This document shows, one piece after another, positions 1,220 to 6,599 of a DNA stretch of 63,259 bases. The DNA is taken from positions 1 to 63,259 of the forward strand of contig ONIM01000034.1 of assembly GCA_900317885.1 (NCBI GenBank), given 5' to 3'. This DNA comes from an uncultured Bacteroidales bacterium. GTDB taxonomy: Bacteria; Bacteroidota; Bacteroidia; Bacteroidales; Paludibacteraceae. The translations under genes and the position numbers were made by a program. Positions within the stretch are counted from its first letter, which is position 1. Every line of letters starts with the position of its first letter. Below the pieces are notes generated by a model. It was not told where the DNA came from. It made no database searches and saw only the letters and a list, made by a program, of their open reading frames with translations.

Positions 1220-1912
1220 ATGAGATTGGTATTTGCATCGAATAATGCGCATAAGTTAAGCGAGGTGCGGGCAATGATGCCGGAAGGCATCGAGGTGCTG
1301 AGTCTGAAAGATATCGGATTTGAGGCCGAGATCGAAGAGACCGGCGAGACCTTAGAGGAGAACAGCCTGATCAAAGCCCGCACGATATGGGACTTTATTA
1401 ATGATGGAATGAGCGCGGCAAAGCCGCTCAATGATGGATTGATGATTGACGGGGTATTTGCGGACGATACGGGTCTGGAGATCGACGCGCTGAACGGCGA
1501 GCCGGGAGTATATACGGCGAGGTGGTATAGGAGGGAGCCTACCCTAACCCTCCCAAAAGGGAAGGAAATGACTGATGAGATGCTGAACTTCCATTGTAAC
1601 CGTGCGAAGGCGCTGCGGGAGTTGGAAGGCAAAGAGAATCGGGGATGTCAGTTTAGAACCGTGATTACATTATTGATGAATGGCGACGCTACGCTTAATG
1701 GTGGAATGATTCAAATAGAAGGGGTTGTACGCGGACGGATAGCCGAAGAAGAGTACGGGGAAGGAGGATTCGGTTACGATCCGGTATTCATCCCCGAAGG
1801 ATACGACAAGACTTTCGGCGAACTGCCGGCTGAGCTGAAGAACAGCATCAGTCACCGCGCAAGAGCCATTCAGGAACTGGTGAAGGTTCTGAATGATAGA
1901 ATGATGGATTGA
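1220..1912 (+). CDS. rdgB: XTP/dITP diphosphatase, RdgB/HAM1 family, with several insertions
   Basis: Cytoplasmic house-cleaning pyrophosphatase that hydrolyses dITP and XTP to the monophosphate. Family motifs are present: FASNNAHKLSEVRAM at the N-terminus, EETGETLEENSLIKA, the active-site FADDTGLEIDALNGEPGVY, and GGFGYDPVFIPEGYDKTF with SHRARA near the end. At 230 residues it is some 30-35 longer than usual. The excess sits at about 58-76 (encoded around a GC-rich hairpin), about 104-120 (the AGCCTACC element) and about 152-165, plus the tail NDRMMD from an octamer repeat. None interrupts a catalytic motif, so activity is probably kept. The stop is 4 bp before the porZ start, implying coupling. 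Confidence 0.93.
   Translation: MRLVFASNNAHKLSEVRAMMPEGIEVLSLKDIGFEAEIEETGETLEENSLIKARTIWDFINDGMSAAKPLNDGLMIDGVFADDTGLEIDALNGEPGVYTARWYRREPTLTLPKGKEMTDEMLNFHCNRAKALRELEGKENRGCQFRTVITLLMNGDATLNGGMIQIEGVVRGRIAEEEYGEGGFGYDPVFIPEGYDKTFGELPAELKNSISHRARAIQELVKVLNDRMMD
1536..1567 (+). repeat. AGCCTACC/hairpin element, copy in rdgB
   Basis: Begins AGCCTACCCTAACCC, then TCCC-AAAA-GGGA and AGGAA. It reads in frame as EPTLTLPKGKE (residues about 106-116) where other HAM1 proteins have a short loop. It is related to the copies at 47854-47886 and 57812-57850. Confidence 0.75.
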
Positions 1913-1920
1913 TGGAATGA
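1891..1920 (+). repeat. Octamer tandem repeat at the rdgB/porZ junction
   Basis: GAATGATA, GAATGATG, GATTGATG and GAATGA follow one another without gaps. The third unit contains the rdgB stop and the last one the porZ start codon. Confidence 0.8.
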
Positions 1921-4900
1921 AAAAGATACTAACCATATTATGCTGTATCGCTACGATGACGTACGGATATAGCCAGCAATGGACGACATTCTTTGCGTAC
2001 AACCAAGTGACGCAGATAGCAATGTCTCCGGAGCGGATATATGCCATTTCTGACGGCAGTCTTTACAGCGTCGATAAGATATCGGAACAGATCCGTATCT
2101 ACAATAGTCAGTCAGGTCTGCACAGCACCGGTATCTCGTGTATCCAATACGACGATGCGCGCAACCAACTGATCATCGCCTATCAATCCGGTAAGATAGA
2201 TCTGCTGACGTCCTCCGGGGTGCAGTATATCAGCGATTTGTACGACAAAGATATGACGCAGCGCAAGACGGTGAATAATATCACTATCAGTGGTTACACC
2301 GCCTATCTCTCCACAGCGTACGGCGTACAGACGATGAATCTGAAGCAGAACAAGTTAGTAGATAGTTACTGGTTGCGCCCGAATGGAGAAGAGACGGATA
2401 TCCGGGATGTTGTTCTGTTCGGAGACAGTATTTATGCGTTCACGACGGATAGTCTGTTCTGCGCCAAGCTAAGCGATAATATCGTGGACTACCGTTACTG
2501 GAAGCGTGAGCTTCGCAGCGGTCGCATTGCTCCGGATCCGGACAAGGGCGTGCACTACAACGATGGTACGAGCGATTGGTATGCAGGTGGCGGGGAAGGA
2601 ATCGTTCGCGTCAGCGCTACCGAACGGCAGAGTTACAAGCCGGAAGGACCGAAGACGAACACCCCGTATAGTCTAACGGCGGTGAATGGCCAGGTATGGA
2701 TGGTACCCGGAGGACGATGGGCCGTGCAATATTCCCGTCCCGGCGTGGCAATGCACTACAACGGTCAGCAATGGACGAACATAGAGACTGCATACATAGA
2801 ATCCAAGACGGGTCTTCAAGCTCTGGATTTCATGAATACAGCAGTCGATCCGCACGACCCGAGCCATTATTTCGTCACGAGTTATGGCACAGGTTTGTAT
2901 GAGTTCCGCGCAGATAGTTTGGTCAAGCACTATCTGCCGGCAGAAGATAATACGATCGTCGCGGTCATCCCTTCCTCGCCGGCCTTATACACCCGTCTGG
3001 ATTGCGCGGTGTACGATGAGGACAATCACTTATGGTTTTTCACCACGGGCAGCGACAAGCAGTTACAATGCTTAGACGCAAATGGTCAATGGCACGCTAT
3101 CACGGTGCGCACGAGTGGCGGGACACCACTTGAGATTCCTACTCCTACAGGTCTATTGATTGATCAAAGGAACGCGAACCATAAATGGTTCTGTATCGGT
3201 CGCTATGCGGTAGGAGTGACGCTTTTAGACGACGGCGGCACCCGATGGGACGAGACGGATGACGTGACTTATACGCGCAGCAGCTGGGTGGATCAGCACG
3301 GCAAGGCATTCGAAGTACAGGCAATATACGGTATTGCGCAAGACGCGTTAGGACGTATCTGGATTGTCAGCGAGCAAGGCGCAGCATATATTGACAGCCA
3401 AACAGATTTCAAGACCTCGAACGCTATCGTACGTCCGGATTTCGAAGATAACAACGGCGAGAACCCTATCACGTCGCTGAAGATGAATGCTATTGCCGTA
3501 GATGCCGAAGGACAGATATGGTTAGGCACGGATGAGTTAGGCGTCTATGTCTTAGACAGCGCATCGACGGAGATCAAGGCGCACTATACCACGGAGAACT
3601 CCGCCCTACCGTCCAACAGCATCTTGTCGCTCGCAGCTGACGAACAGGGGGTAGTATGGCTGGGTTCCTCGGAAGGACTGGTTCGGTTCGATCCCAACGG
3701 CAGTGAAGAAGGGCTGAAAGGCAATATAGCGAATGAAGAAGACCATTTGGATCCGGGCAGTATGCAACAATGGAGACTTCACCTGTCGTACAACAACGCC
3801 ACGGAGGTGGTAGGAACAGAGCAACATATCTTTGCCATCGCAAACGGAGCCCTCTTCTCCTTTAATCGCGCAGACGAAGCAATCGAATATTGGGACCAGA
3901 CGAAAGGTCTAAACGGCACCACTATCACGCATATATGCCGAGACAAGGCGTCGGGAAGTCTTGTGATCGTTTATAGTGACGGACGTATTGATCTCATGGA
4001 TACGGATGGTACGGTACGTCAGATGCCGGATATATCCGTCAAAGCCGGTGCTGTCTCTGTCAGTGTCAATAGCGCCCGAAGCGGAGATAAGAATACGTAT
4101 CTGGCTATGCAGTTCGGCATCGTCGCTATCAACTGCAAGCGGGGAGAAGTGAAAGATACCTATTATATAGGCCATGAGGCGGCAGATGTAGATGTACTGG
4201 CCGTATTGGAGAAAGGCGACTCGATCTATGCTTTCTCCGCCGACTCGATGTACAGCGGATGTATGCGGGATAACTTAGCAGACTACCATTTCTGGCACGC
4301 TAACCCTGTTCCTCTCCGCGATCTAACGCACGCCGAACAGGCTCACAATCAGATATATACCGTTCAGCATGACTCCTTATACCGCTATGAAAACGGCGCA
4401 TGGCAATTAGTGGACGGCAAGCAGACCAGCTGGATTCACGCCACAGACGGCAAGATGCTTGTTTGCTCCGAAGAGCGGAATTTATACGAGTTGAACGAAG
4501 CGGGAGAGTTAACCGGTTTATGCGACCGCTATTACATCAACGACGCCATCTATTCGCGAGGCGAATACTGGTTAGGCGAGAAAAACTGGGGTCTGATCCG
4601 TTTAGGCACCTCAGGCGATGAGTTCTACCACACGGAAGGTCCCAACACCAATTCGGCATACTACGTTCATACCGCGCACGGACATGTCTATGCGGTAAAC
4701 GGCGGGCGGTGGGCCTCCGAATATATCCGTCCGGCGAGGATCAATGTATATGACGGTACGAGTTGGCGCGGGGTAACCGAATACGAACTGATTGCAAACC
4801 TAGGTAAATGGATCATAGACCCCGTGAGCGTGGCGGTGGACAACCAGGATCCGGGACACTATTATGTAGCGGCTTACGGATGCGGTGTTATCGAGTTCCG

Positions 4901-5987
4901 GAATTTCGAACCGGTCAAACAGTATAACTCAGAGAACAGTACCCTCAAGCCGGTGAACAGCACTATCAATCCGGAATTCTACACGCGTACGGACGGAGCG
5001 ATGATGGACAAAGAAGGCAATCTATGGGTGATGAATGCGACAACGATCGGCAAGCCTCTTCATGTTCTAACAAAGACAGGGCAATGGGTAGGTCTGAGTA
5101 TGCGTAGCGAGGGCACGGACATTGTCTTCAATACTCCAGCCGGCATATGGCCGGACAGACGCGACAGCCGCTACAAATGGATGATGGACCAGCGAGCAGA
5201 TGCCCGCGGCGTGATTTTCCATTTCGACAACGGTACTCCTACCTCCACTTACGATGATCATTGTATAAGGAGAAATACCTTCGTTGATCAGAACAATAAC
5301 ATCCTCACGCCGAACTATTTCTACAGTCTGGCTCAGGACAAGAATAACCGCGTCTGGATCGGGACCGACAAAGGCATATTGATTATCCCGAGCGAAGTGG
5401 ATTTCTTCCAATCCAACGCTTGCCGACGTATCATCATCCCGCGCAATGACGGTACGGGTTTAGGCGATTACTTGTTAGGGGAAGAGCAGATCAAATGTAT
5501 GCTTGCGGACGAAGGCAACCGGATGTGGATCGGTACCGCCGGATCGGGTCTGTACCTCATCGAAGACGATACCATCACCGCAGCGCATTTCACAGAGAGT
5601 AACTCTCTCTTGCCTTCCAATAACGTGCTGTCGTTAACTATCGTGCCGGAGACAGGCGAACTCTTTGTCGGTACAGAGAAAGGCATCGCATCCTATCGCA
5701 GCGATGCGAGCGAAGCGAAGGAGGATATGTCCGGCGCATATGCATACCCGAACCCGGTACGTCCGGATTACGGCGGCATGATCACCATCGCGGGGCTGAT
5801 GGATAACAGCGAAGTACGTATTGTGGATAGCGGCGGAGGATTGGTATGCCGCACGCGCAGCCATGGCGGTACAGCCGTCTGGGACGGCAAACTGCCGGAC
5901 GGCAGACGCGCAACACCGGGCGTCTATACCGCATTATGCAACGCTGTAGGAGGACACACCGCGGTGAAGATATTAGTAATTCGGTAA
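1917..5987 (+). CDS. PorZ-like beta-propeller protein, apparent tandem fusion of two PorZ modules with one T9SS C-terminal domain
   Basis: A 1356-residue secreted protein with a signal peptide ending near YGYSQQ (about residue 19). Residues about 19-610 and 616-1270 are two diverged copies of one architecture. SQQWTTFFAYN matches MQQWRLHLSYN; GGRWAVQYSRP matches GGRWASEYIRP; DPSHYFVTSYGTGLYEFR matches DPGHYYVAAYGCGVIEFR; ALYTRLDCAVYDEDNHLW matches EFYTRTDGAMMDKEGNLW. Each copy holds the two-propeller layout of PorZ, with Reg_prop-type blades such as GQIWLGTDELGVYVLD. Only the second copy is followed by a T9SS sorting domain, from AYAYPNPV at about 1272 to the end. Known PorZ is roughly 780 residues and belongs to the PorU-V-Q-Z attachment complex on the cell surface. 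The linker is about residues 603-615. A related two-component propeller protein other than PorZ is possible. Confidence 0.8.
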   Translation: MKKILTILCCIATMTYGYSQQWTTFFAYNQVTQIAMSPERIYAISDGSLYSVDKISEQIRIYNSQSGLHSTGISCIQYDDARNQLIIAYQSGKIDLLTSSGVQYISDLYDKDMTQRKTVNNITISGYTAYLSTAYGVQTMNLKQNKLVDSYWLRPNGEETDIRDVVLFGDSIYAFTTDSLFCAKLSDNIVDYRYWKRELRSGRIAPDPDKGVHYNDGTSDWYAGGGEGIVRVSATERQSYKPEGPKTNTPYSLTAVNGQVWMVPGGRWAVQYSRPGVAMHYNGQQWTNIETAYIESKTGLQALDFMNTAVDPHDPSHYFVTSYGTGLYEFRADSLVKHYLPAEDNTIVAVIPSSPALYTRLDCAVYDEDNHLWFFTTGSDKQLQCLDANGQWHAITVRTSGGTPLEIPTPTGLLIDQRNANHKWFCIGRYAVGVTLLDDGGTRWDETDDVTYTRSSWVDQHGKAFEVQAIYGIAQDALGRIWIVSEQGAAYIDSQTDFKTSNAIVRPDFEDNNGENPITSLKMNAIAVDAEGQIWLGTDELGVYVLDSASTEIKAHYTTENSALPSNSILSLAADEQGVVWLGSSEGLVRFDPNGSEEGLKGNIANEEDHLDPGSMQQWRLHLSYNNATEVVGTEQHIFAIANGALFSFNRADEAIEYWDQTKGLNGTTITHICRDKASGSLVIVYSDGRIDLMDTDGTVRQMPDISVKAGAVSVSVNSARSGDKNTYLAMQFGIVAINCKRGEVKDTYYIGHEAADVDVLAVLEKGDSIYAFSADSMYSGCMRDNLADYHFWHANPVPLRDLTHAEQAHNQIYTVQHDSLYRYENGAWQLVDGKQTSWIHATDGKMLVCSEERNLYELNEAGELTGLCDRYYINDAIYSRGEYWLGEKNWGLIRLGTSGDEFYHTEGPNTNSAYYVHTAHGHVYAVNGGRWASEYIRPARINVYDGTSWRGVTEYELIANLGKWIIDPVSVAVDNQDPGHYYVAAYGCGVIEFRNFEPVKQYNSENSTLKPVNSTINPEFYTRTDGAMMDKEGNLWVMNATTIGKPLHVLTKTGQWVGLSMRSEGTDIVFNTPAGIWPDRRDSRYKWMMDQRADARGVIFHFDNGTPTSTYDDHCIRRNTFVDQNNNILTPNYFYSLAQDKNNRVWIGTDKGILIIPSEVDFFQSNACRRIIIPRNDGTGLGDYLLGEEQIKCMLADEGNRMWIGTAGSGLYLIEDDTITAAHFTESNSLLPSNNVLSLTIVPETGELFVGTEKGIASYRSDASEAKEDMSGAYAYPNPVRPDYGGMITIAGLMDNSEVRIVDSGGGLVCRTRSHGGTAVWDGKLPDGRRATPGVYTALCNAVGGHTAVKILVIR

Positions 5988-5990
5988 TAA

Positions 5991-6016
5991 AAAAAGCAGG
6001 CGCTCGCCTGCTTTTT
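5991..6016. terminator. Bidirectional terminator between porZ and folE
   Basis: AAAAAGCAGGCG pairs with CGCCTGCTTTTT around a 2-nt gap. It serves both converging genes and overlaps the folE stop codon. Confidence 0.9.
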
Positions 6017-6599
6017 ACGACTTAATGAGTTTCATGAACTCCTCCCGGGTCTTGGCTTGATTGAAGACCCCGGTGAAATCCGAGGTGACGGTCATGGCGT
6101 GTTGTTTCTGCACGCCACGCATCTGCATGCATAAGTGCTCCGCCTCGATGACCACCATCACTCCGAGGGGATCGAGGGTATTCTGGATGCACTCCTTGAT
6201 CTGGGTCGTCAACCGCTCTTGAACCTGCAACCTGCGGGCATAGACATCCACAACGCGGGCAATCTTGCTGAGCCCGGTAATACGTCCGTTCGGGATATAC
6301 GCCACGTGCACCTTCCCGAAGAACGGCAACATATGATGCTCGCACAGGGAGTAGAAATCAATATCTTTGACCACCACCATCTGGCGGTAATCTTCCTCGA
6401 ATAACGCAGAGCGGAGAATCGCCTCCGGATCTTCGTTATAGCCTTTGCAGAGGAACTGCAAGGCTTTTCCCACACGATGGGGAGTCTTAACCAGGCCCTC
6501 ACGGGTCGGGTCCTCACCTATTTGCGTCAGGGTCTTCTCTACCGCCCTGGCGATCTCGTCTGTTACAGACTGAGAGGGATGAAATTCTTGCAGGTCCAT
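6015..6599 (-). CDS. folE: GTP cyclohydrolase I
   Basis: Converts GTP to 7,8-dihydroneopterin triphosphate, the first step toward tetrahydrofolate or queuosine-type pterins; cytoplasmic. At 194 residues it is normal for the short bacterial form. The zinc ligands are visible as C86 and H89 in [10 protein letters not shown] and C157 in [25 protein letters not shown] and [23 protein letters not shown] are the other hallmark stretches. The start codon overlaps the stop of the upstream SPOR gene by one base (TAATG), so translation is probably coupled. It is the last gene of the minus-strand run that starts near 11500. Confidence 0.97.

Follow-up and report, generated by a model that had tools for sequence, protein, structure and literature searches.

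The window analysed here, the 63,259-nucleotide contig ONIM01000034.1 (GenBank assembly GCA_900317885.1) of an uncultured Bacteroidales bacterium of the family Paludibacteraceae, encodes on its forward strand a double-length PorZ, a component of the type IX secretion system (T9SS), of 1356 amino acids (aa; 1917..5987, stop included). We assign a probability of roughly 0.6 to the reading that this protein is a canonical PorZ, formed by the second of its two modules (copy 2) together with a C-terminal domain, to which a paralogous module (copy 1) has been fused N-terminally and acts as a specialised binding arm. The gene is one open reading frame (ORF) with a single start, no internal stop and a single T9SS C-terminal domain.

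The whole protein is a member of the NCBIfam family NF052228 (T9SS_PorZ), scoring 964.5 bits over a cut-off of 260, and the Pfam PorZ_N_b_propeller profile matches two separate stretches of it. A first-pass annotation of the window had described two complete PorZ modules in one chain sharing one sorting domain. The two modules are borne out by alignment of the halves along most of their length, with residues 20-597 and 617-1266 showing 29% identity over 654 columns that include 80 gap positions (BLASTP E 5e-82; 308 bits half against half with phmmer). In a genome search, copy 2 (residues 616-1271, 3762..5729) matched NF052228 continuously over model positions 23-757 (579.5 bits), and copy 1 matched it as two joined stretches, model positions 1-199 and 288-662 (462.3 bits). 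The single sorting domain is likewise upheld: only copy 2 reaches the last of the 757 model positions, copy 1 ending at 662, and the T9SS C-terminal domain lies at about residues 1272-1356 (5730..5984), as placed by the end of the model, by alignment with the Porphyromonas gingivalis PorZ structure (PDB 5m11) and by a weak FlgD_ig match below cut-off. The completeness claimed for both modules does not extend to copy 1, which lacks about 72 aa (net) of propeller 1 near its end, the C-terminal domain and a conserved propeller-2 motif. Copy 1 is preceded by a likely Sec signal peptide (residues 1-20, 1917..1976), read by eye from the sequence, and is separated from copy 2 by a linker (residues 599-615, 3711..3761) that is predicted to be disordered (predicted local distance difference test, pLDDT, below 50 in an AlphaFold2 model). 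Across 65 fetched double loci, the linker as delimited by hidden Markov model (HMM) boundaries has a median length of 22 aa (range 18-25).

The structure of copy 1 was predicted with AlphaFold2 from window residues 19-615 and 66 aligned modules, yielding a model (m2577678f3d17) with a pLDDT of 93.7 and a predicted template modelling score of 0.89. Its propeller 1 (residues 31-240, 2007..2636) contains 20 predicted strands over 210 residues, which we read as five four-stranded blades rather than seven; propeller 1 of P. gingivalis PorZ has seven blades over 284 residues (K39-M322). The site of the missing stretch (NF052228 positions 200-287) falls at 2511..2576. Propeller 2 (residues 252-592, 2670..3692) is predicted to have seven blades, its 26 strands being raised to 27 by an N-terminal strand (residues 21-25), with one blade including a strand too short for listing; in P. 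gingivalis PorZ, according to the sections consulted of its structural description, an N-terminal strand also completes propeller 2 (PMC5121618). Foldseek searches with the copy 1 model returned 5m11 as the top match (E 2.1e-41, TM-score 0.82 by query length, root-mean-square deviation 4.2), followed by 4a2l and 4a2m. Copy 2, which aligns with one continuous stretch of both the family model and 5m11 (residues 619-1339 with the C-terminal domain), would on this sequence evidence have seven plus seven blades. The first-pass annotation had anticipated four seven-bladed propellers, an expectation from which the five plus seven blades modelled for copy 1 depart.

The missing stretch recurs among relatives of the window within its genus. 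In the 62 fetched copy-1 modules with an uninterrupted frame (window excluded), a gap at approximately HMM positions 182-269 is present in 50, a smaller gap at approximately positions 236-271 in 11, and none in the remaining one (genome G045). A smaller-gap copy 1 (locus L100) was modelled with a pLDDT of 92.4 and again had 5m11 as its best Foldseek match; its propeller 1 shows 26 strands, which fit neither six nor seven clean blades, and a six-bladed propeller 1 was set aside for these 11 modules.

Module comparison further identified 15 propeller-2 positions that are conserved in single PorZ proteins and in copy 2 and changed or absent in copy 1, as opposed to only four such positions in propeller 1. 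Twelve of the 15 lie at HMM positions 562-602, in a motif that hardly varies among the family's single PorZ proteins, is kept in copy 2 of the window (residues 1176-1207, 5442..5537) and has been lost at the equivalent place in copy 1 (residues 507-538, 3435..3530). As judged by eye, P. gingivalis PorZ lacks most of this motif, which therefore marks the window's family and not PorZ at large; the name "PorZ signature" was rejected as too wide for the same reason.

Conservation in copy 1 is inverted, propeller 1 being its better conserved part. Across the 47 larger-gap genomes compared (1081 pairs, not independent of one another), copy 1 has a mean identity of 0.548 in blades I-IV of propeller 1 versus 0.421 in propeller 2, and the corresponding values are 0.472 versus 0.535 in copy 2, 0.396 versus 0.465 in 56 single PorZ proteins of the genus and 0.445 versus 0.444 in 50 singles of the family. 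The stretch deleted from copy 1 is the least conserved part of copy 2 and of the singles (identity 0.19-0.29); in the 11 smaller-gap genomes, copy 2 reaches 0.36 there. When pairs of relatives were compared, propeller 1 was the slower-evolving of the two propellers in all 22 copy-1 pairs, in 5 of 22 copy-2 pairs and in 8 of 23 pairs of singles; in the 16 pairs judged to be sisters for both halves, it was so in all 16 for copy 1 and in 4 for copy 2. Comparing the copies directly, copy 1 has the slower propeller 1 in 19 of 22 pairs and the faster propeller 2 in 21 of 22. For the 40 closest of 179 pairs, the median ratio of nonsynonymous to synonymous substitution rates (dN/dS), a rough measure here as many dS values exceed 1, was 0.15 in copy 1 as against 0.10 in copy 2; the propeller-1 part of copy 1 had a value of 0.12 and the remainder of that copy 0.17. 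Copy 1 is thus under purifying selection.

Survey of 178 genomes of the genus (window included, tallied by hand from the rows of two surveys) excludes the double PorZ as an oddity of one genome. Copy 1 precedes copy 2 in 106 of the 178, and 99 carry a single ORF of at least 1264 aa; 63 of these ORFs, the window's among them, were examined for their individual modules and each contains two, the other 36 being classed by ORF length and matches alone. Seven of the 106 lack one uninterrupted ORF (G041, G077, G115, G122, G133, G142 and G156): the matches are split over two contigs in G041, G077, G122 and G156, and apparent frameshifts in copy 1 of G133 and G142 were discarded, the breaks being runs of N. 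Only in G086 are the two PorZ modules encoded by separate genes. PorZ is single and full-length in 56 genomes, and single but shortened in propeller 1 in three (G004, G088 and G157); the rest comprise one fragment (G066), two genomes with weak matches only (G163 and G172) and nine with none. The named relatives are "Bacteroidales bacterium" or "Paludibacteraceae bacterium" records, many with ruminant isolate names. Outside the genus, all rows listed in a survey of the family (358 genomes from 33 genera, 348 with a match; seven weak-match genomes, G212, G235, G250, G259, G262, G278 and G352, gave no row) are at most 865 aa. Surveys of the order (198 genomes, 177 with a match) and class (296 genomes, 268 with a match), in which only the stronger rows were listed and G359 was the one two-match genome looked into, gave rows of at most 870 and 926 aa, respectively, apart from the window. 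Full-length PorZ proteins of other genera measure 748-926 aa among the rows listed, and together with the 56 single full-length proteins of the genus they show that the length of the window protein is not general among its relatives, a point on which the first-pass annotation had made its interpretation depend.

Phylogenetic inference suggests that copy 1 originated inside the genus. In a FastTree phylogeny of 238 modules, copy 1 forms one clade (support 96) whose sister group comprises the full-length copies of G045 and G086 (97), and copy 2 is intermixed with single PorZ proteins (10 changes); another module tree also recovers copy 1 as one clade (100). IQ-TREE with a mixture model on 78 of the 238 modules groups copy 1 and the two full copies within the genus (98). 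Copy 1 from the window's clade clusters with the remaining copies 1, and the approximately unbiased (AU) test rejects a separate duplication within this clade (p 1.9e-10), in line with the old, retained duplication suggested in the first-pass annotation. An rpoB tree built from 90 rows of the genus and 7 of outgroups has single PorZ proteins only on the deepest genus branches, and on it the double or single state requires 8 changes, counting G004 and the outgroups as single. These trees suggest that copy 1 was gained inside the genus and then underwent several losses and some recombination; repeated gain of copy 1 by transfer may also have contributed. The copy-1 and copy-2 trees are broadly alike. 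Three chimeric doubles (loci L131, L133 and L177, in G058, G103 and G012) combine a copy 1 of the window's clade with a copy 2 nearest to early-branch singles. Since rpoB places G012 and G103 in the window's clade, copy 2 looks like the swapped part there; G058 gave no rpoB match.

Shortening of propeller 1 is not confined to copy 1. G045 (L124) has the reverse state, with a full copy 1 and a shortened copy 2, and G086 does likewise over two genes; both copies are shortened in G174 (L135). The shortened copies 2 of these three genomes retain the propeller-2 motif, and the full copies 1 of G045 and G086 retain part of it. Loci L126, L127 and L128 (G004, G088 and G157), as well as L129 from another genus (G340), encode a single shortened PorZ that reaches the end of the C-terminal domain, from which it follows that a PorZ with a C-terminal domain can have the shortening. 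The states of G045, G086, G174 and G340 indicate that propeller 1 was shortened at the same place more than once, on at least three parts of the tree: in most copies 1, in copy 2 of the G045/G086/G174 group and in G340.

On the reading that copy 1 is a specialised arm of a canonical PorZ, copy 1 would have arisen by duplication inside the genus, as the trees suggest, and would be exported as a passenger of copy 2 on the common signal peptide and C-terminal domain. Copy 2 would perform the usual work of PorZ in the PorU-V-Q-Z complex; PorU (1023.7 bits), PorQ (297.1) and the PorV family (369.1) are all present over their cut-offs in the window genome. Copy 1 would serve as a flexible, tethered second arm, its shortened propeller 1 binding a further ligand, either a glycan or a partner protein.

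Several observations weigh against this interpretation. The reversed state of G045 and G086 counts against it, as does the higher dN/dS of copy 1 relative to copy 2. The scattered distribution of copy 1, interpreted as repeated loss, indicates that the module is dispensable. Given that P. gingivalis PorZ, as judged by eye, does not keep the propeller-2 motif either, its loss need not mean a loss of PorZ function. The closure of a five-bladed ring in copy 1 is deduced from strand count and model confidence. With respect to the history, IQ-TREE gives copy 1 a support of only 47 without the full copies of G045 and G086, the AU test does not reject a duplication of independent origin in the clade of these two genomes (p 0.27), and neither the rpoB tree nor IQ-TREE pins the duplication to one point within the genus.

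Among the alternatives, copy 1 might be a decaying duplicate without a specific job, retained as in-frame and harmless. Its loss of part of propeller 1 and of the conserved motif, its scattered distribution, interpreted as repeated loss, and its faster propeller 2 (21 of 22 pairs) would agree with decay, but an uninterrupted frame in 99 genomes, a dN/dS of 0.15 and a propeller 1 slower than its copy-2 counterpart (19 of 22 pairs) make this unlikely. A role for copy 1 as a spacer raising the attachment complex or a shield covering it, with no ligand, would suit the linker of 18-25 aa found in 65 loci and predicted to be disordered in the window's copy; such a role would not, however, be expected to produce so marked a difference in conservation between the two propellers, and we consider it decidedly unlikely. 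The view of the first-pass annotation, a fused dimer of equivalent PorZ modules presenting two binding faces of the same kind, draws on the alignment of the halves along most of their length and on the match of the copy 1 fold to 5m11. It is improbable in light of the five blades predicted for propeller 1 of copy 1, the lost motif and the inverted conservation, and in its strict form of two equal, complete copies it is ruled out by the profile gap, the AlphaFold2 blade count and the lost motif. An assembly artefact joining chimeric contigs, conceivable for a draft genome of 89 contigs and 88.8% completeness, can be practically discounted given the ORFs of 1264 aa or more in 99 of the 178 genus genomes, copy-1 relatives in records from many projects and the broad agreement of the copy-1 and copy-2 trees.

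A more speculative extension of the specialised-arm reading, which we put forward tentatively, is an attachment complex with a built-in PorZ heterodimer, in which the canonical PorZ would hand the usual glycolipid to PorU and the five-bladed module would recognise a different ligand (another surface polysaccharide or cargo class). One complex could then choose between two anchors or cargo sets, with halves exchangeable by recombination. According to the portions consulted of the P. gingivalis literature, the attachment complex of that species consists of PorU, PorV, PorQ and PorZ, with PorQ appearing to anchor PorZ (PMC5562754), and PorZ binds anionic lipopolysaccharide (A-LPS), and binds PorU more tightly with A-LPS (PMC8545088). 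Tannerella forsythia PorZ does not bind P. gingivalis A-LPS (PMC8545088), which suggests that PorZ ligands differ between species. In these same portions (PMC5121618, PMC8545088, PMC5562754), the A-LPS and PorU contacts of PorZ are not assigned to one propeller.

The double gene occupies the ordinary place of porZ, as its rdgB neighbourhood is common to double, single and other-genus loci. In the window, rdgB/HAM1 lies upstream on the same strand (1220..1912), and folE is the convergent downstream neighbour (6015..6599, reverse strand); neither is part of the system, rdgB being conserved beside porZ. An upstream, same-strand rdgB within 1.5 kb is found at 57 of 65 double loci, 51 of 61 other genus loci and 46 of 51 loci of other genera. 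A hairpin with a T run, resembling a terminator, can be made out by eye in the interval separating porZ from folE (5996-6016). In L130 (G136), the rdgB match overlaps a 1561-codon stop-to-stop open frame of PorZ, which may reflect a lost stop codon or an assembly error; overlaps of this kind occur in two doubles and one other locus. In G086 (L125, 3185-8889), a stand-alone PorZ of 758 aa without the usual C-terminal domain is followed by a WecA-like glycosyltransferase 4 (GT4) gene and then by a PorZ with a shortened propeller 1 and a C-terminal domain. The tail of the stand-alone protein presumably resembles those of other Bacteroidales secreted proteins. A homologue of the G086 glycosyltransferase gene directly precedes porZ in G157, and the presence of this gene beside porZ in G086 and G157 fits a tie to surface polysaccharide, while proving nothing.

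Comparison with known systems delimits what is new here. P. gingivalis PorZ is reported to be monomeric and consists of one module with two seven-bladed propellers (PMC5121618, in the sections consulted); the window protein resembles it in having two propellers and a T9SS C-terminal domain in copy 2, as well as a calcium-loop pattern D..T.....DD (D520-D530 in P. gingivalis, PMC5121618), seen by eye in both copies, and differs from it in the second, modified module fused in front. Single-length PorZ proteins of the genus and family mostly share the rdgB-porZ neighbourhood, and those of the genus mix with copy 2 in trees, but they lack copy 1. In another family of the order, G359 carries adjacent tandem PorZ genes of 766 and 784 aa (C20:212649-217296), which, unlike the window's modules, are separate genes that both reach the model end. 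BT4663-type hybrid two-component sensors (4a2l, 4a2m) have two seven-bladed propellers (PMC5121618), but they are membrane sensors with a Y_Y_Y domain and not T9SS components. The titles and abstract openings listed by literature searches on PorZ, type IX secretion and blade-number evolution contain no mention of a duplicated or fused PorZ, and a word search of the text available for a T9SS phylogeny paper (PMC7323717) for duplicat, paralog, fusion and tandem gave 0 hits. PorZ itself is already known, and copy 2 is a member of its family; as far as these searches show, the fused, specialised second module with its predicted five-bladed propeller is new.

The genus thus offers a natural dissection of PorZ, in which copy 1 keeps blades I-IV of propeller 1 and drops the propeller-2 motif and the sorting domain, alongside a complete copy 2 and sister species with one module or with a module whose propeller 1 is shortened. 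This natural set of complete, shortened and single modules makes the question of which propeller does what testable through binding assays on natural proteins, in a lineage where the front copy of PorZ seems to be turning into a different tool.

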